From contig NZ_LQAQ01000060.1 in assembly GCF_001583495.1 (NCBI RefSeq), positions 1-64,000 on the forward strand: DNA of 64,000 bases, written 5' to 3'. A program made the position numbers and the translations under genes. This DNA is from Flammeovirga sp. SJP92. GTDB lineage: Bacteria > Bacteroidota > Bacteroidia > Cytophagales > Flammeovirgaceae. Below the pieces are notes generated by a model. That model was not told the DNA's origin. It ran no database searches and saw only the letters and a list, made by a program, of their open reading frames with translations. Each line of letters opens with the position of its first letter. Within the stretch, counting starts at the first letter, position 1. Positions 41,805 to 48,880 of this stretch are shown here, in pieces.

Positions 41805-42992
41805 CTACCCTTCAATCATATTTGTAATAATGATCGGATTGTTCTCCAAGGTTCTATGCACAGGACATTTATTAGCAATTTCCATCAAACGCTTTTTCTG
41901 AGCTTCAGTAAGATCACCTTTTATCTGTATATTTCTGTACAGTTTATCCAGCTTAGCGGTACGCTTGTTCGTATTTTCAGCATCTTTGAGATATTCATTT
42001 TCATGATTCAAATGCACCGTCACTTCCTCTAAAGGAATTTTTTTGTGATCTGCATACATTCTTAAAGTCATGGCTGTACATGCTCCCAAACCTGCTAATA
42101 CAAATTGATAAGGATTGGGCCCTAAATCTTTTCCTCCATCTTCAATAGGCTCATCAGCTATTTGATGGTGAATACCTGCTTTTACCTCAGTCACATATTT
42201 TGTCGTACCAATTCTCACAGCCGTTTGATGTTGAGTTTCCAAAGGGTCTTCCGGTTCCATTTGCACGTATCTTTCCGACCAAGTGGCTATATTATTTCCA
42301 ACATAATAACCATTTTGAGGGTTTGACAAAAAGTGATTGGCATAGTCTAATGAAATGAAACTTTTAGGGTGGAAAGCATTACTATAGATCTTTTCAGCAT
42401 TAGTAATATCTACAATTTCATCATGTGGCGAATGGAAAATAAGTAATGGAATTCTTGTTTTGTGGATGACCTCTTTAATGTTTTGATGTGTTATTTCATT
42501 AAAGAAATCTGCTGTTACTTTAAAATAATTATCTCCTAAAGTCACATCATACAAGCTTGTATCTTCTTTATTAGGAGTACACAGTTTTTGGATATGACTT
42601 GATTTAATAACAGCACTGATGGTTACCACTGCTTCAATACTTGCTACTCGATTTGCAGAAACAATACATGCCGCACCGGCAAGAGAATGTCCTATCAAAA
42701 TTTGTGGAGAACGAAGATGCTCAGCCATATACTCTGTGAGAGCCAGAATATCTTCGTGGTCTGCATAGTATTCATTCTGATGAGAAATCCCTGTAAAGTC
42801 AAGCGTCACCACTGATACTCCCTTTTGATTCAGCCCTCTTTTGATACTGTCAATAACAGAAGTGTCATCCATTCCGCTAAAACAATGAGCAAATAAGGCA
42901 TATGCATGTGTCACCTGATCTGCTGGATCACAAATTTCAGCCTCTATTTCAATTCCTTTCTTATTCTTAAATGTGATTTTTTCTGAAGACAT
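41805..42992 (-). CDS. Alpha/beta-hydrolase and OsmC domain fusion
   Basis: This 395-residue cytosolic protein has two domains. Residues about 1-255 form an alpha/beta hydrolase with the nucleophile elbow IGHSLAGAA (Ser103) and a plausible acid/His near PHDEIVDI and YANHFLSNP. Residues about 265-395 form an OsmC/Ohr domain with its two redox Cys in GLGACTAMTL and ANKCPVHRTL. OsmC proteins reduce organic peroxides through this Cys pair. The fusion is a known architecture in bacteria, but its physiological substrate is unsettled. The start lies 12 bp after the aldehyde dehydrogenase stop, so it is the last gene of the five-gene operon. It may protect against reactive by-products or hydrolyse an ester; both are inference. 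Confidence 0.9.
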   Translation of the reverse strand: MSSEKITFKNKKGIEIEAEICDPADQVTHAYALFAHCFSGMDDTSVIDSIKRGLNQKGVSVVTLDFTGISHQNEYYADHEDILALTEYMAEHLRSPQILIGHSLAGAACIVSANRVASIEAVVTISAVIKSSHIQKLCTPNKEDTSLYDVTLGDNYFKVTADFFNEITHQNIKEVIHKTRIPLLIFHSPHDEIVDITNAEKIYSNAFHPKSFISLDYANHFLSNPQNGYYVGNNIATWSERYVQMEPEDPLETQHQTAVRIGTTKYVTEVKAGIHHQIADEPIEDGGKDLGPNPYQFVLAGLGACTAMTLRMYADHKKIPLEEVTVHLNHENEYLKDAENTNKRTAKLDKLYRNIQIKGDLTEAQKKRLMEIANKCPVHRTLENNPIIITNMIEG

Positions 42993-43004
42993 GATTTATT
43001 GATT

Positions 43005-44375
43005 TTATACTTCTCTCCAATGATATGCTTTAGGTTGTGTGAAAGCTCTGATTCCCTGGGAAGAAAGAGTGGTTCCTACTCCGGATTTATTTCTTCCTGA
43101 CCAAGGTACATTTGGACTTACTCTATCACAACAATTCCAATACACAGTGCCCGTATTCATAATTTTCAATACTTGCTCAGCTCTTGCCTGATCTGTTGAA
43201 AAAACAGCGGAAGTAAGTCCATATTCAGTATCTTTCATTAATTCAATGGCCTCTTCATCATTTTTCACTTTTTGAATTCCAATGATAGGCCCAAATGATT
43301 CTTCTTTCATCACCAGCATTTCATGATTAACTTCTATCAGAATAGTTGGTGCGAAAAAGTTTCCTTTCCCTGCTAATTCATCTCCACCCAATAGCAATTT
43401 AGCTCCTTTTGAGATAGCATCATCGACCTGATTTCTTAATAAATTTAATTGCCCTTTACGAGTCAAAGGACCAATAAAAGTATTTTCTGATTCAGGGTCC
43501 CCTATTACATACCCTTCCACTTCTTCTAAAAAGAATTTAATAAAATCATTATAAATATTTTCATGAACATAAATACGCTCCACTGCACAACAACTTTGTC
43601 CATTATTATAAAATGCACCTTCAGCGGCATTGACTGCGGCAACTTTCACATCCTTCACGTCATCCATGACATAAAGTGGGTCTTTTCCTCCTAGCTCCAA
43701 TTGTACAGGAACCATTTTAGGTGCTACTTCTTTCAGAATATGAAGACCCGTTGGATATGAGCCTGTGAAAAAATAGCCATCAAAAGCCACCTCCAACATG
43801 GCTTGCCCCGTAGATCCATCCCCTACAATACATTGAAATACATTTTCAGGAACACCAGCCTCGTATAACAAATCAGCAAAAGCTAAACCCGTTAAAGTTG
43901 CAAATTCTGAAGGCTTGTAAGCAACGGAATTCCCTGCCACCAATGCATATAAAAATACATTATAACCTACATTATAAGGAAAATTCCAAGCTGAAATATT
44001 GGCCACAACTCCTAAAGGTTCATGTATTATTTTCTCATAGGTGCCTTCCAAACCTTCAATCACATTATCGGCTAACCATTTTTCAGCATTTTGTTTTAAA
44101 TGTTCAATCCGATTATTAGCACCCCTTATTTCATTGTAGGACTGCTGTATAGGCTTGCCTGTTTCTGAAGTTAAAACCTTGGCTAAATTGTCAATATTAC
44201 TTTGTACCAATGCTCCAAATTTTACAATGCAATTCAAACGTTCTGCTACTGTTTTCTGAGACCAAAGTAATTGTCCATGACGTAGTTTATTTAATTTATC
44301 TAGAATGGTTTGAGAAGAATCTTCTTCTACGGATTTCAAAAGCTGTTCATTGGAAGGATTGTAGATATTCATCAT
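43005..44375 (-). CDS. Aldehyde dehydrogenase (NAD(P)+-dependent)
   Basis: This 456-residue ALDH-superfamily protein has the cofactor signature VVANISAWNFPYNVGY, the general-base Glu in LELGGKDP and the catalytic Cys in NNGQSCCAVER. KPSEFA is the cofactor-binding Lys segment. In this operon it follows the PuuD-like hydrolase (7 bp gap), and an alcohol dehydrogenase lies two genes upstream. A likely role is to oxidise a gamma-glutamyl aminoaldehyde to the acid, as PuuC does in putrescine breakdown. Substrate assignment is inference. It is cytosolic. Confidence 0.93.
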   Translation of the reverse strand: MMNIYNPSNEQLLKSVEEDSSQTILDKLNKLRHGQLLWSQKTVAERLNCIVKFGALVQSNIDNLAKVLTSETGKPIQQSYNEIRGANNRIEHLKQNAEKWLADNVIEGLEGTYEKIIHEPLGVVANISAWNFPYNVGYNVFLYALVAGNSVAYKPSEFATLTGLAFADLLYEAGVPENVFQCIVGDGSTGQAMLEVAFDGYFFTGSYPTGLHILKEVAPKMVPVQLELGGKDPLYVMDDVKDVKVAAVNAAEGAFYNNGQSCCAVERIYVHENIYNDFIKFFLEEVEGYVIGDPESENTFIGPLTRKGQLNLLRNQVDDAISKGAKLLLGGDELAGKGNFFAPTILIEVNHEMLVMKEESFGPIIGIQKVKNDEEAIELMKDTEYGLTSAVFSTDQARAEQVLKIMNTGTVYWNCCDRVSPNVPWSGRNKSGVGTTLSSQGIRAFTQPKAYHWREV

Positions 44376-44382
44376 TCAATAT

Positions 44383-45129
44383 TTAAACATGACTTAAAAA
44401 AGTATCTATGATTGGTTTAGAATCTATTATTTCGTTTTGTAAAGTAGGTGTAAATTCAGGATGCCACTGCACCCCCATCACTTTACCAGGTTTCTCTTTT
44501 TTGTAACCGAAGGCCTCTATTAATCCATCATCAGAAGTAGCCCAAATTTCTAGGTCTTTTCCTAAGTCTTTGATTGCTTGATGATGCACAGTGTTTACAT
44601 AGGGATGCTTGTGATCTGCATATAATTCACTGAAAAAAGTATTCTCATTAATGAGTAAAGGATGCTTGATACTGTCGTACTTCTGTGCATCTCTATGATG
44701 GTTAACATCTTCTCTCTGTGATTTTGTATCCTGATAAAGTGTTCCTCCAAAATAAACATTCATCAACTGAAAACCTCTACACACTCCCAAAAGTGGTTTC
44801 CCATTTTTGATGGTATAATCAATAATTTTCAGTTCGTACTCATCTCTGTACCGATCACCTTTCCAAGGACCAATAGGTGTTTCTCCATATGTTTCAGGTG
44901 CTATATCTACTCCTCCTTGTAGAATTACTCCATGAAGCTCTTCTAAAATAGGATAAAGTCTATCGTCTGAGATATCTGGAAGTAAAATGGGTAAAACACC
45001 ATGCTGTGCTACATAATCCATCATATCATTTTCTATATAAGTCAACGATTTTGGACCATAAACGGCACGTTCAACATCGGGATACATAAAACTGGGTGTA
45101 ATTCCTATATTTATCATTCTATAATGCAC
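44383..45129 (-). CDS. Gamma-glutamyl hydrolase, PuuD-like class-I amidotransferase family
   Basis: This 248-residue member of peptidase family C26 has the nucleophile Cys in LLGVCRGFQLMN and the His in MGVQWHPEFTP. HGVILQGGVDIAPETYGE is a typical N-terminal segment. PuuD removes gamma-glutamyl groups from gamma-glutamyl-GABA. Its start overlaps the iron alcohol dehydrogenase gene by 11 bp, which indicates translational coupling. In this operon it would release glutamate and an amino acid at the end of the pathway. It is cytosolic with no signal peptide. Confidence 0.9.
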   Translation of the reverse strand: MHYRMINIGITPSFMYPDVERAVYGPKSLTYIENDMMDYVAQHGVLPILLPDISDDRLYPILEELHGVILQGGVDIAPETYGETPIGPWKGDRYRDEYELKIIDYTIKNGKPLLGVCRGFQLMNVYFGGTLYQDTKSQREDVNHHRDAQKYDSIKHPLLINENTFFSELYADHKHPYVNTVHHQAIKDLGKDLEIWATSDDGLIEAFGYKKEKPGKVMGVQWHPEFTPTLQNEIIDSKPIIDTFLSHV

Positions 45130-46270
45130 TAGTGTAAATGGAGATAAAGTCTTCTTCGGTGGCCACCTTCGGATTGAATGGCAATGTAAAATCTTTCACC
45201 GCCAATGATGCCAAAGGTTTTATATGTTCTTCCTTCACTCCTATCTCCGATAGTTGATTGGGCATTCCAATCTGTTCATTCATCACCTCAATATGATCCA
45301 CCAAGTTTTTACCTTGGTTGCTACCCAAATTCATATTGTATGCCATGATATTGTACTTTTCTTCAAAGCCCTGATAATTGAATTTCAGGCCAAAAGGCAA
45401 ACAGATTGCATTTGCTAATCCATGGTGCGTATCCAGCAAACTGGAAAGTGGATGAGCTAAACTATGGACAATTCCTAAACCTTTCTGAAACGCTACAGCA
45501 CCCATCAACGACCCCATCATCATTTTGGAACGGGAAAACATATCTGGCTCATTCGTGGCTTGAATGATTGATGTGGCAATCAGTTTCATTCCCTGAATGG
45601 CAATACCATCACACATAGGGTTGAAACCTTTGGAAAGGTATGCTTCCATATTGTGCGTTAACGCATCCATTCCTGTAGCAGCGGTAACAAAAGGAGGCAA
45701 GTCCAATGTGAGCATAGGATCTGCGAAAACAATTTTAGCCAAAAGTTTAGGAGAAAAAAGAATCTTCTTTTGTTTGGTGACATCATCCGAAATAATGGCA
45801 CTTCTACCCACTTCACTGCCTGTTCCAGATGTTGTTGGAATGGTAATAAAATGCGGTACTTCTTCTGTGACATATTTGTCGCCACCTATGAGGTCATCAT
45901 AATCAAATAAGTCTCTGTGGTGATTAATTCTTAAAGCAATGGCTCTCGCTACGTCCATAGCCACTCCACCACCAAGACCAATGATTGAATCACATTCATT
46001 TTCTTTATAAAAATCACCTCCTCTGATCACATCTGATTTCACAGGGTTTTTCTGCATTTCAGAATATACCGCTGGAGACAATTCTTGCTGTTCTAATTTC
46101 TGAACGATTTCTTTGAAAAAAGTCAACTCAACCACCGTCCCATCTGTGACAATCAAGGGACGTCTCAAATTATTTGTTTTTAGGTAATCGCCTAATTCGT
46201 TGACTACCCCTACACCAAAACGAATGGTTGTAGGGAAATTGTAAGTGTAAGTTTGATGTATATCGAGCAT
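45119..46270 (-). CDS. Iron-containing alcohol dehydrogenase
   Basis: The 383-residue group III dehydrogenase has the NAD(P) signature GLGGGVAMDVARAIAL and PTTSGTGSEVGRSAI. The metal ligands have the usual spacing: Asp and His in GMDALTHNMEAY, then His residues in HSLAHPLSS and THHGLANAICLPF. It begins 2 bp after the ligase gene stop and overlaps the PuuD-like gene. The classical Puu pathway uses a flavin oxidase (PuuB) at this step on gamma-glutamylputrescine. An alcohol dehydrogenase here suggests the ligase product carries a hydroxyl group. It is cytosolic and iron-dependent; a reductase role in the opposite direction cannot be excluded. Confidence 0.93.
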   Translation of the reverse strand: MLDIHQTYTYNFPTTIRFGVGVVNELGDYLKTNNLRRPLIVTDGTVVELTFFKEIVQKLEQQELSPAVYSEMQKNPVKSDVIRGGDFYKENECDSIIGLGGGVAMDVARAIALRINHHRDLFDYDDLIGGDKYVTEEVPHFITIPTTSGTGSEVGRSAIISDDVTKQKKILFSPKLLAKIVFADPMLTLDLPPFVTAATGMDALTHNMEAYLSKGFNPMCDGIAIQGMKLIATSIIQATNEPDMFSRSKMMMGSLMGAVAFQKGLGIVHSLAHPLSSLLDTHHGLANAICLPFGLKFNYQGFEEKYNIMAYNMNLGSNQGKNLVDHIEVMNEQIGMPNQLSEIGVKEEHIKPLASLAVKDFTLPFNPKVATEEDFISIYTSAL

Positions 46271-46272
46271 AG

Positions 46273-47631
46273 TTAAATAATTTCAAAATAACGTTTAGTT
46301 TCCCAATCAGTCACTTCTTTCATAAACTGTCTCCATTCCCACTCTCGTGACCTAGTAAAGTGATCTATAAATTCCTCCCCAAAAAGTTCTACCATCAAAG
46401 AAGATCCTTTCATTTTCTGCGTTGCTTCCCATAAATTGGAGGGCAATGTGCCGTTTGCTAAATCCTCGTAACCATTGCCTATTGTCTTTGGGGTTTCCAG
46501 CTTCATGTTTTGTTCTATTCCATAAAGCCCACTTGCCAAGCAAGCGGCCATTGCCAAATATGGATTTACATCTGAACCGACTACTCTTGTTTCTAATCGA
46601 CAAGACTTTTCACCATGTGGCAAGGCTCTGAGTGCTGTTGTTCTATTATCTATTGCCCAAGTCAATGTAGTAGGTGCCCAAGCCCCTTCCACCAATCTTT
46701 TGTAACTATTAATAGTTGGTGCCAACATTGGCAACATAAAAGGTAGACAATGCAACTGACCCGCTATATAGCTTTTCATAGTATCACTGATATGATCTTC
46801 TGCTTTGGCCTCATAGAAAAGATTTTTTTGCTTTGAAGCATCCCATAAACTTTGATGTATATGTCCACTACAACCCGGTAAAACACTATTTTGTTTCGCC
46901 ATAAAACTGGCAATTATACCGTGTTTGTAGCCAATCTCCTTTACTCCGGTTTTGAAAAGCGTTGCCCTGTCTGCCGCCTCTACAATTTCACTGTATTGTA
47001 TTGCCGCTTCATATACTCCAGGTCCCGTTTCGGTATGAAGTCCTTCCAATGGTACTTTGAAACTTTCCAACATATCAAACAAATCATGAAAGAATTGGCT
47101 GTTTTCTGAAGCCCTTAGTATAGAATAACCGAACATTCCTTCAGTTAAAGGCTGAATATTCTGAAAGCCTTTTTGATAAAGCTCTTCTGATTTTTGTCGA
47201 AAATTGAACCATTCAAACTCCTGAGAGAAAAAGGGCGTAAATCCTAAATTATGTGCTTTTTCCTGCACTCTTTTTAATAATGCTCTTGGACCTACGGTTT
47301 CATCATCTTTATTTTCTCTGCTGAAATCAGCCAGGAAAAAGGGCAAATCTTCTTCCCATGGAATCTGTCTGAAGGTAGCCACATCAATTCTTGCGGGTGC
47401 ATCAGGGTATCCTGTGTGCCATCCCGTCACTTTAGCGTTATCATAAGATTCATCAGCCATGTCCCAGCCAAAAACAACATCGCAAAAACCGAAGCCTGTT
47501 TTTAATGCTGCTATAAATTTATTGATGTGCATAAATTTACCTCTAAGCACACCATCTATATCTACAATGGCTACTTTTACTTTTGAGTGTCTACTGTCTT
47601 CTAAGAGATCAATTACTTCTTGTTTGGTCAT
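46273..47631 (-). CDS. Glutamine-synthetase-family gamma-glutamyl-amine ligase (PuuA-like)
   Basis: The 452-residue protein has the GS catalytic barrel: TETGPGVYEAAI (glutamate/metal site), SGHIHQSLW (ammonia/ATP region), TLTWAIDNRTTALRALP and CRLETRVVGSDVNPYLA (ATP and glutamate phosphate). The N-terminus (VKVAIVDIDGVLRGKFM) is like PuuA and other gamma-glutamyl amine ligases rather than the true assimilatory GS types. The family joins glutamate to an amine at the expense of ATP. As the first gene of the operon it would prime the amine substrate. Which amine is used is not visible; ethanolamine or another amino alcohol fits the downstream dehydrogenase best, while putrescine remains possible. 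Confidence 0.9.
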   Translation of the reverse strand: MTKQEVIDLLEDSRHSKVKVAIVDIDGVLRGKFMHINKFIAALKTGFGFCDVVFGWDMADESYDNAKVTGWHTGYPDAPARIDVATFRQIPWEEDLPFFLADFSRENKDDETVGPRALLKRVQEKAHNLGFTPFFSQEFEWFNFRQKSEELYQKGFQNIQPLTEGMFGYSILRASENSQFFHDLFDMLESFKVPLEGLHTETGPGVYEAAIQYSEIVEAADRATLFKTGVKEIGYKHGIIASFMAKQNSVLPGCSGHIHQSLWDASKQKNLFYEAKAEDHISDTMKSYIAGQLHCLPFMLPMLAPTINSYKRLVEGAWAPTTLTWAIDNRTTALRALPHGEKSCRLETRVVGSDVNPYLAMAACLASGLYGIEQNMKLETPKTIGNGYEDLANGTLPSNLWEATQKMKGSSLMVELFGEEFIDHFTRSREWEWRQFMKEVTDWETKRYFEII

Positions 47632-47837
47632 AAGTATTAGTCTGAGGGAAAAAAGTTTACTTTATGTGTAAAATAAAATAGTAGCAAAAGGCCGTATTAT
47701 AACCTTTTATTAATGCCCAATAGAAGAGAATATCTATCTGAAATTTTATTTTATAGAAAATAGGTGTAAATAATATTCAAGTTTACTGGGTGTTACTGTT
47801 AACAAAATAGTTGATTTTGAGGAAAAAAAGAAGAGGT

Positions 47838-47867
47838 CAAAAAAAAAGCTCACAAAAACTGTGAGCT
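47838..47867 (-). terminator. Terminator of the tetR-ahpD-like operon
   Basis: On the minus strand AGCTCAC / GTGAGCT (7-base loop) is followed by TTTTTTTTT, 40 bp after the AhpD-like gene. Confidence 0.85.
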
Positions 47868-47906
47868 CATCATAATTATATCATTAAAATAGAAGCAGAA
47901 TACCTC

Positions 47907-48263
47907 CTATTCTTGATTTTCTTTTTCTTCAAAAAGAGCATCCAAATATTCCATGGCTCTTCTTAAATGCGGAATTACAATGGTACCTCCAACAACGTTG
48001 GCAACACCCATGCCTTCTACAATCTGCATTTTAGAATAACCAAGCTCTACACATTTTTCTAAGTGGTACTTCACGCAATCATCGCATCTCAGCACCAAAG
48101 AAGTTGTAAGACCAATCATCTCTTTTGTCTTCTCATCCAATGCACCTTCTGTGTATGTGATCGTGTCGAGACTATAGATCCTTTTGATCACTTTGTCAGA
48201 ATTGTTGATCACTTTTTCGTTTAGAGCAGCCCTTTTGTCTCTGTATTCTTCTAAAATATTCAT
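47907..48263 (-). CDS. AhpD-like carboxymuconolactone decarboxylase family protein
   Basis: This 118-residue protein has the AhpD-type active-site motif, Cys-x2-Cys followed by His (VLRCDDCVKYHLEKC, about residues 50-64), and the helix QIVEGMGVANVVGG. AhpD-class proteins use the Cys pair as a thiol relay for peroxide or redox partners. Many small family members have no proven substrate. The start is 38 bp downstream of the tetR-type gene, with no terminator between, so they are probably cotranscribed and controlled by the operator at 48920-48935. Confidence 0.9.
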   Translation of the reverse strand: MNILEEYRDKRAALNEKVINNSDKVIKRIYSLDTITYTEGALDEKTKEMIGLTTSLVLRCDDCVKYHLEKCVELGYSKMQIVEGMGVANVVGGTIVIPHLRRAMEYLDALFEEKENQE

Positions 48264-48301: not shown

Positions 48302-48880
48302 TTAAATAAAGCTTAGATTTAAATCAATTAGGTCTTTCATTTCCTTTTTGTCGGCATACACTCTGCGGGTGACATTAATGCCATTCCAGAAATTGATCAA
48401 ATGCCTTGATAATAGTGATGGTGGCAATGTAGATTTGATGATACCTTTTTCTTGAGCAGATTGAAGTGTTTTGATCAAAATACTTTCAAAACGTTTCAAA
48501 TAAAGTACTGCCAATTCTTTCAGCTCATCATCTTTTCCCGTAAATTCTACAATAGAGTTCCCAAGAATACATCCTTTACAATCTTCATCAAAAGAGGCGT
48601 CCACCATATCATAAAACAGTGCTTTCAAGTCTTCGATAGGCTGTGTGCTTTTTTCCAAGCTTTCTTCAAGTCGGTCCAAGCCTGTTTGCTCCATTTGATT
48701 CAAGCCTGCTTTAAAAAGTTCTTTTTTACTTTTGAAAACGTTGTAAAGGCTGCCTTTATTAAGGTTTACTTCTTTGAGAAGGTCGTTGGTGGTGGTTGCT
48801 TCGTAGCCATTTTTCCAAAATAGTGCTATTGTTTTTGAGAGCAATTCACCCTGATCAAAAATTCTGGGTCTACCTGCCAT
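48302..48880 (-). CDS. TetR/AcrR family transcriptional regulator
   Basis: The 192-residue protein has a TetR-type N-terminal HTH (about 10-55; ALFWKNGYEATTTNDLLKEV and NKGSLYNVFKSKKELF). The C-terminal ligand/dimerisation domain contains DCKGCILGN, with two Cys that could sense redox or electrophiles. It is similar in organisation to regulators of small AhpD- or oxidoreductase genes. Its promoter overlaps a perfect palindrome (see the promoter entry), so it most likely represses itself and the AhpD-like gene. Confidence 0.92.
   Translation of the reverse strand: MAGRPRIFDQGELLSKTIALFWKNGYEATTTNDLLKEVNLNKGSLYNVFKSKKELFKAGLNQMEQTGLDRLEESLEKSTQPIEDLKALFYDMVDASFDEDCKGCILGNSIVEFTGKDDELKELAVLYLKRFESILIKTLQSAQEKGIIKSTLPPSLLSRHLINFWNGINVTRRVYADKKEMKDLIDLNLSFI

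Follow-up and report, generated by a model that had tools for sequence, protein, structure and literature searches.

The gene run at positions 47631 to 43005, on the minus strand of a 64,000-nucleotide stretch of the Flammeovirga sp. SJP92 genome (contig NZ_LQAQ01000060.1; hereafter the window), very probably encodes a cobalamin-independent pathway of ethanolamine utilization that proceeds via gamma-glutamyl intermediates. The run comprises genes for a glutamine synthetase (GS)-like ligase, an iron-type alcohol dehydrogenase (Fe-ADH), a PuuD-type hydrolase of the peptidase C26 family and an aldehyde dehydrogenase (ALDH). In the proposed scheme, an Eat-type permease of the APC family, encoded elsewhere in the genome, would import ethanolamine, and the ligase would use ATP to join glutamate to it, producing gamma-glutamylethanolamide. 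Fe-ADH would then oxidize the hydroxyl to an aldehyde and ALDH would convert this aldehyde into gamma-glutamylglycine, from which the C26 hydrolase would release glutamate and glycine. The glutamate tag, which would shield the amine during the oxidations, would be recycled, and glycine could be used further since GcvP is encoded in the genome. We infer the substrate, each of the reactions, their order and the use of glycine from protein families and gene context.

The sequence of glutamylation, oxidation of the alcohol and the aldehyde, and hydrolysis had been proposed in an earlier note made from the letters of the window. This scheme, including the choice of ethanolamine over putrescine, is supported by the linkage of an ethanolamine-type permease in relatives, by the lack of matches to EutB and PuuB in the window genome, by the loss of the flap Glu at the ammonia site of the ligase and by the grouping of the ADH with its counterparts in ethanolamine-type operons of proteobacteria.

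Gene order and its conservation

Based on a check of open reading frames (ORFs) and gaps, five minus-strand genes with spacings of 2, -11, 7 and 12 bp are present in the window (Table 1), and these coordinates together with the Pfam families confirmed the genes, order and gaps that had been listed before. The five-gene order is kept in all eight other genomes of the genus in a sample of 58 relatives. The last gene, an alpha/beta-hydrolase-OsmC fusion, adjoins the operon in each of them, and it had been counted as the fifth operon member. This did not hold outside the genus, as none of the 80 closest named loci carries the fusion on the same strand within 8 kb, evidencing that it is probably a genus-specific neighbor and not part of the pathway. 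The pathway operon, as judged from gene content, thus most likely consists of the first four genes.

These 80 loci are the best of at least 573 confirmed ligase relatives (592 matching stretches) in named genomes; counts taken from them hold for the closest relatives and not for the phylum, and several of the loci are ended by contig boundaries. The synteny survey that had been suggested from the window, as run on this set, showed that the first four genes recur outside the genus, which argues that the arrangement is not due to chance. In 48 of the 80 loci the permease, ligase, Fe-ADH, C26 and ALDH genes are found on one strand within 8 kb. The APC permease gene precedes the ligase on its strand in 56 loci, at 300 bp or less in 52, with a median gap of -4.

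The ethanolamine permease and the distribution of the genes

All six ligase-linked permeases of this kind that were scanned exceeded the cut-off (381.75 bits) of the TIGR00908 model "ethanolamine permease", as did those of two cassettes with a short-chain dehydrogenase (SDR) described below (8/8 ligase-linked copies in all); none of 14 control genomes produced a match over the cut-off. The window genome (8.49 Mb) has its own ethanolamine-type transporter, a permease scoring 443 bits against TIGR00908 at a position unlinked to the operon (C14:55339-56640). In a quick tree with permeases thinned to every fourth, it falls in a clade (100*) with two ligase-adjacent permeases, and it shares 74% identity with one permease next to the ligase.

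Among 395 evenly sampled genomes of the phylum, 20 encode the permease and 12 EutB, and 41 match the ligase with an identity of at least 54%. The Fe-ADH cassette has a scattered occurrence, in eight of these genomes (ADH E <= 1.2e-149; the next best match has 4.5e-81). All eight genomes with the cassette have the permease and none has EutB, and the association of ADH with permease is strong when kinship is ignored (Fisher test, 9e-12). Judging by match coordinates, the permease gene lies beside the ligase in seven genomes (G216, G180, G090, G351, G145, G442, and G204) and beside EutB in another seven (G445, G438, G304, G414, G153, G266, and G045), and none of the 20 permease genomes lacks both EutB and a member of the ligase family (threshold E <= 1e-60). 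Since the permease linked in relatives exceeds the TIGR00908 cut-off and its family occurs beside EutB elsewhere, the genomic context supports ethanolamine as the substrate. Among the 58 relatives, 20 genomes (the window genome included) encode the permease over the cut-off; its association with the ligase gave a Fisher value of 0.0019 and that with EutB 0.14, kinship again being ignored.

The ammonia-lyase route (EutBC) shares with the operon the presumed substrate and, in the seven phylum genomes mentioned, TIGR00908 permeases. Its operation in the window genome was rejected, as no match to EutB (PF06751) was found in this genome (G000) in a search with a positive E. coli control. PuuB, scored over 28 candidates in a search that had no positive control, also produced no match in the window genome. 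Several of the queries used in the searches lacked the initiator Met.

A GS-like ligase with a modified ammonium site

The ligase remained below the cut-offs of the equivalog models for GlnA (TIGR00653, 209 vs 429 bits), for gamma-glutamylputrescine synthetase, the PuuA equivalog GGputSyn (NF045547, 191 vs 650 bits), and for type III GS (208 vs 470 bits). In an alignment to E. coli GlnA it keeps the metal, ATP and most glutamate-site residues, and it has lost residues of the ammonium site at two positions, where flap Glu327 is replaced by Trp318 and Tyr179 by Phe167. Asn264 aligns with a Pro, and the other ligases compared also have a residue different from Asn there. In the study on Streptomyces coelicolor GlnA4, loss of the same residues was argued to be a sign of a larger amine substrate, and Glu327 is given as replaced by Phe in GlnA4 and by Trp in PauA7 (PMC6529630).

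In a quick tree that included every second one of the context-1 ligases, the window ligase falls inside an 11-row clade (97*) of ligases linked to the permease and/or Fe-ADH. In another tree, the window ligase belongs to a supported clade with ligases of Legionella, Photobacterium, Burkholderia and Shinella and those of two alphaproteobacterial operons of another type. Roseobacter-type ligases, taken for comparison as the known ethanolamine type, form a separate supported clade together with the SDR-linked ligases of the phylum. The entry 5dm3 of the PDB, which we take to be from C. salexigens, is close to the roseobacter-type ligases (725 bits). A scan of viral contigs found no relatives of the ligase.

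The dehydrogenases and the hydrolase

As in the gamma-glutamylation pathway of ethanolamine, the operon contains both an ADH and an ALDH gene, and the amidohydrolase appears to be represented by a family member of the C26/PuuD type. The D-H-H-H pattern of the FucO metal ligands aligns in the window Fe-ADH. In a tree with five outgroups the window ADH forms a clade (99/99*) with those encoded in ethanolamine-type operons of proteobacteria, and the same joint clade, with the ADH of a Shinella locus (L206) inside, was recovered with ten outgroups at 92/84, below the star threshold. For these trees the operon ADHs were thinned to every fifth (five outgroups) or every sixth (ten outgroups); FucO is partial in both and YiaY in the five-outgroup tree. 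The paralog L047 was included in both trees, and the ADH L075, from genome G267 (ligase match of 34%), was left out of both; in a preliminary tree that was not used it fell among the proteobacterial-type ADHs.

The Cys in the VCRG motif and the His and Glu in QWHPE of the hydrolase align with PuuD, and these are presumably the catalytic residues of C26 enzymes. Among the hydrolases scanned, the window one is of the C26 type, that of a roseobacter plasmid locus (L086) matches PF05013 and those of L079 and L211 match PF00117 alone. The window ALDH, used as query, is 34.6-36.2% identical to ALDHs of proteobacterial ligase operons. The C26 and ALDH domains are fused in one ORF in six of the 111 loci examined (L070, L102, L105, L120, L149, which is cut short, and L164); the fusion at L070:10443-12542 was checked with Pfam.

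An exchange of the alcohol-oxidizing enzyme is seen in the two SDR cassettes, L211:4300-9901 (G120) and L212:4973-10491 (G212), in which the genes run in the order ligase, SDR, ALDH, amidotransferase and permease. Their permeases are 67-68% identical to that of the window genome, and since the same permease type accompanies either enzyme, Fe-ADH and SDR appear interchangeable, as would be expected if either oxidizes the hydroxyl of gamma-glutamylethanolamide. The gene content of these cassettes is the same as that described for the Streptomyces cluster (PMC6529630).

Evidence against the assignment and alternative explanations

Several observations weigh against an ethanolamine pathway. The permease gene is unlinked to the operon in the window genome, three of the nine genus members (G002, G007, and G008) lack the permease, and the window permease is only 45-46% identical to two EutB-adjacent permeases, so that its specificity could have shifted. 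Among the 41 ligase-matching phylum genomes, the permease is present in only 13 and Fe-ADH in eight, the remaining five ligase-plus-permease genomes having EutB instead of Fe-ADH. Among the relatives, three of the 20 permease genomes (G017, G020, and G039) match neither EutB nor the ligase, and in G009 a permease from the ligase-linked clade occurs together with EutB, a close ligase being absent. Fe-ADH is absent from the stretch read in 6 of 19 ligase-bearing relatives (G011, G015, G016, G032, G045, and G048), 13 of the 80 named loci have no partner gene, and a supported 11-row ligase clade in the quick tree sits beside other genes. The ligase by itself is not diagnostic of the pathway. Furthermore, the ligase residue opposite Asp50 of E. 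coli GS is an Asp that adjoins a large gap, so the alignment does not demonstrate that Asp50 is lost, and the top-ranked plasmid matches of the ADH (38-39%) come from stretches without ligase.

The same chemistry could act on another short primary amino alcohol such as 3-aminopropanol, alaninol or serinol, in which case the products would be glutamate and beta-alanine, alanine or serine, and ethanolamine would be a side substrate at most. The scheme suits any primary amino alcohol, some ligases of the wider clade belong to operons that hint at other amines (L082 and L084), and the ligase shares 36.6% identity with IpuC, whose annotation refers to isopropylamide. This explanation is nevertheless considered unlikely, given that the linked permease exceeds the ethanolamine equivalog cut-off and that its family is found beside EutB in seven genomes. 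The ligases of L082 and L084, 44% identical to that of the window, stand beside genes for an aminotransferase (class III in L084), a polyamine-type ABC transporter and an N,N-dimethylformamidase-like protein, with no ADH, and probably serve another amine. The isopropylamine (IpuC) pathway was rejected; the ipuC locus of TC1 holds genes for cytochrome P450, ferredoxin and a reductase, and no P450 was found among the nine operon and flanking proteins scanned.

A Puu-like or gamma-aminobutyrate (GABA)/4-hydroxybutyrate route, in which C26 would act on gamma-glutamyl-GABA, ALDH on succinate semialdehyde and Fe-ADH on 4-hydroxybutyrate, finds its argument in the best NCBIfam models: 4-hydroxybutyrate dehydrogenase for the ADH (337 vs a cut-off of 500 bits) and succinic semialdehyde dehydrogenase PRK09407 for the ALDH (336.6 vs 521), two results that also speak against ethanolamine, and PuuD for the hydrolase (89 vs 266). 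All are under their cut-offs, and for the ALDH none of the best 25 matches listed reaches its own. The operon resembles the Puu pathway of E. coli in the glutamylation, the ALDH step (33.2% identity to PuuC) and the PuuD-type C26 hydrolase (28.7% identity). It differs in having an ADH in the place of PuuB and a ligase only 28.6% identical to PuuA, far under the GGputSyn cut-off, and the permease linked in relatives is of the ethanolamine type. Taken together with the PuuB search described above, a route of this kind seems highly improbable.

That the ligase is an ordinary GS among unrelated neighbors agrees with its Gln-synt_C domain and is the least credible explanation of all, in view of the failed GlnA cut-off, the replaced Glu327, the same co-linear partners in 48 of 80 loci and two further Gln-synt_C matches (frames of 720 and 737 aa, presumed GS III) in the window genome.

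Comparison with known systems

The pathway itself is known and the window operon is a variant of it. Besides the actinobacteria named in the earlier note, it is also reported from Phaeobacter, Chromohalobacter and Agrobacterium (PMC10132767). In that report, proteins of one operon rise in Phaeobacter MED193 growing on phosphatidylethanolamine; going by the order of loci in the legend, the operon encodes RpiR, gamma-glutamylglycine amidohydrolase, a TRAP transporter, the ligase, ALDH and gamma-glutamylethanolamide dehydrogenase, and the table of increased proteins given there omits some of these (PMC10132767).

The roseobacter plasmid locus L086 has the MED193 gene order with an iron-containing ADH as the last gene, suggesting by analogy that the dehydrogenase of MED193 is also iron-type; the L086 gene in the position of the binding protein is annotated only by a signal domain. 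The iron enzyme had been regarded as a special feature of the Bacteroidota version. This could not be upheld, because roseobacter operons also have an iron ADH, which in the ethanolamine-type operon of L086 groups with that of the window, and the iron ADH is therefore not the new part. L086 and the window share ligase, ADH, ALDH and amidohydrolase; they differ in that the L086 ligase (34.8% identity) belongs to another supported clade, the ALDH is 36% identical, the hydrolase is of the N-formylglutamate amidohydrolase type (PF05013) and the transporter is TRAP and not an APC permease.

Operons on plasmids of Legionella lytica (L079) and Photobacterium sp. DA100 (L080) also have a ligase (47% identical), ALDH, Fe-ADH and amidotransferase in one run, but in the order ligase, ALDH, ADH, amidotransferase, with an ALDH nearer to the roseobacter type, ADHs in the proteobacterial clade and, in Legionella, a hydrolase matching PF00117 and not C26. 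The S. coelicolor GlnA4 cluster (SCO1610-1615) resembles the window operon in its gamma-glutamylethanolamide synthetase, predicted oxidation, ALDH and amidohydrolase, and several Streptomyces clusters include a putative ethanolamine/amino acid permease, as the relatives of the window do; it differs by a short-chain dehydrogenase in the place of Fe-ADH (PMC6529630).

The operon thus appears to differ from the known versions in the lineages of its ligase and ALDH, the PuuD-type hydrolase and the APC permease. Searches of open-license papers in PubMed Central showed no recognizable report of a Bacteroidota version, nor of an Fe-ADH cassette that joins an APC permease and a PuuD-type hydrolase to ligase and ALDH of separate lineages and to a C26-ALDH fusion. 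We lean, with some reserve, towards the view that the Bacteroidota built a version of their own, combining an iron ADH akin to the one in proteobacterial ethanolamine operons with separate ligase and ALDH lineages, the APC permease and a PuuD-type hydrolase that in some lineages is fused to ALDH, possibly channeling gamma-glutamylglycine. A parallel SDR cassette would use the same permease, and within the phylum the pathway would be about as frequent as EutBC (8 vs 12 of 395 genomes) and would serve as its alternative without a need for cobalamin.

Ethanolamine derived from phosphatidylethanolamine is an abundant source of nitrogen and carbon and a common product of membrane-lipid breakdown, and the operon points to a B12-independent route for its use in Bacteroidota, which are degraders of much organic matter. 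Genes that at present have family-level names only (GS family, iron-containing ADH, gamma-glutamyl-GABA hydrolase family) could gain the annotation of one pathway where the operon occurs. The exchange of Fe-ADH and SDR and the C26-ALDH fusion offer compact tests of the scheme.

Features of the locus and additional observations

Table 1. Coordinates of the operon genes and neighboring features in the window.
Feature	Position	Strand	Length	Family or remark
GS-like ligase, predicted gamma-glutamyl-ethanolamide synthetase	46273..47631	minus	452 aa	Gln-synt_C, 312.6 bits (Pfam)
Iron-type ADH, predicted gamma-glutamylethanolamide dehydrogenase	45119..46270	minus	383 aa	Fe-ADH and ADH_Fe_C (Pfam)
PuuD-type class-I amidotransferase/peptidase C26, predicted gamma-glutamylglycine hydrolase	44383..45129	minus	248 aa	GTG start; Peptidase_C26, 188.8 bits
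NAD(P)-type ALDH, predicted gamma-glutamyl-aminoacetaldehyde dehydrogenase	43005..44375	minus	456 aa	Aldedh, 411 bits
Alpha/beta-hydrolase-OsmC fusion	41805..42992	minus	395 aa	OsmC and Hydrolase_4 (Pfam); co-directional, probably outside the pathway
Likely promoter region (inferred)	47632..47906	minus	275 bp	Gap 5' of the ligase, between its start and the next minus-strand gene
CMD/AhpD-like protein	47907..48263	minus		PF02627; genus neighbor, no pathway role assigned
TetR-type protein, possible regulator	48302..48880	minus		PF00440 and PF16925; genus neighbor

The C26 gene has an alternative ATG four codons inside its GTG start, with which the overlap would become a 1-base gap. Upstream of the ligase, the CMD/AhpD-like gene is present in seven of the eight other genus loci (not in L050), and the TetR-type gene is also found in seven of the eight. 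In one genus member (G005, L049) a TGA interrupts the reading frame of the ligase, which points to a pseudogene or an assembly error. Two loci, L165 (labeled Beijerinckiaceae) and L173 (labeled Bacteriovoracaceae), carry a Bacteroidota-type operon, by misbinning or transfer.

Relatives of the ligase are also found in a second context, at L169:6712-11261 as well as in L138, L140, L150, L152, L159, L163, L170, and L180, where they likely act on a different substrate; no known pathway was recognized among these genes. The context includes a protein of about 347 aa in eight loci (the scanned copy, from L169, matches no Pfam family), an HAD-type protein in six (assigned with Pfam for L169 only) and, in four, a second protein of about 337 aa, which in L169 is a GS homolog with Gln-synt_N and part of Gln-synt_C.

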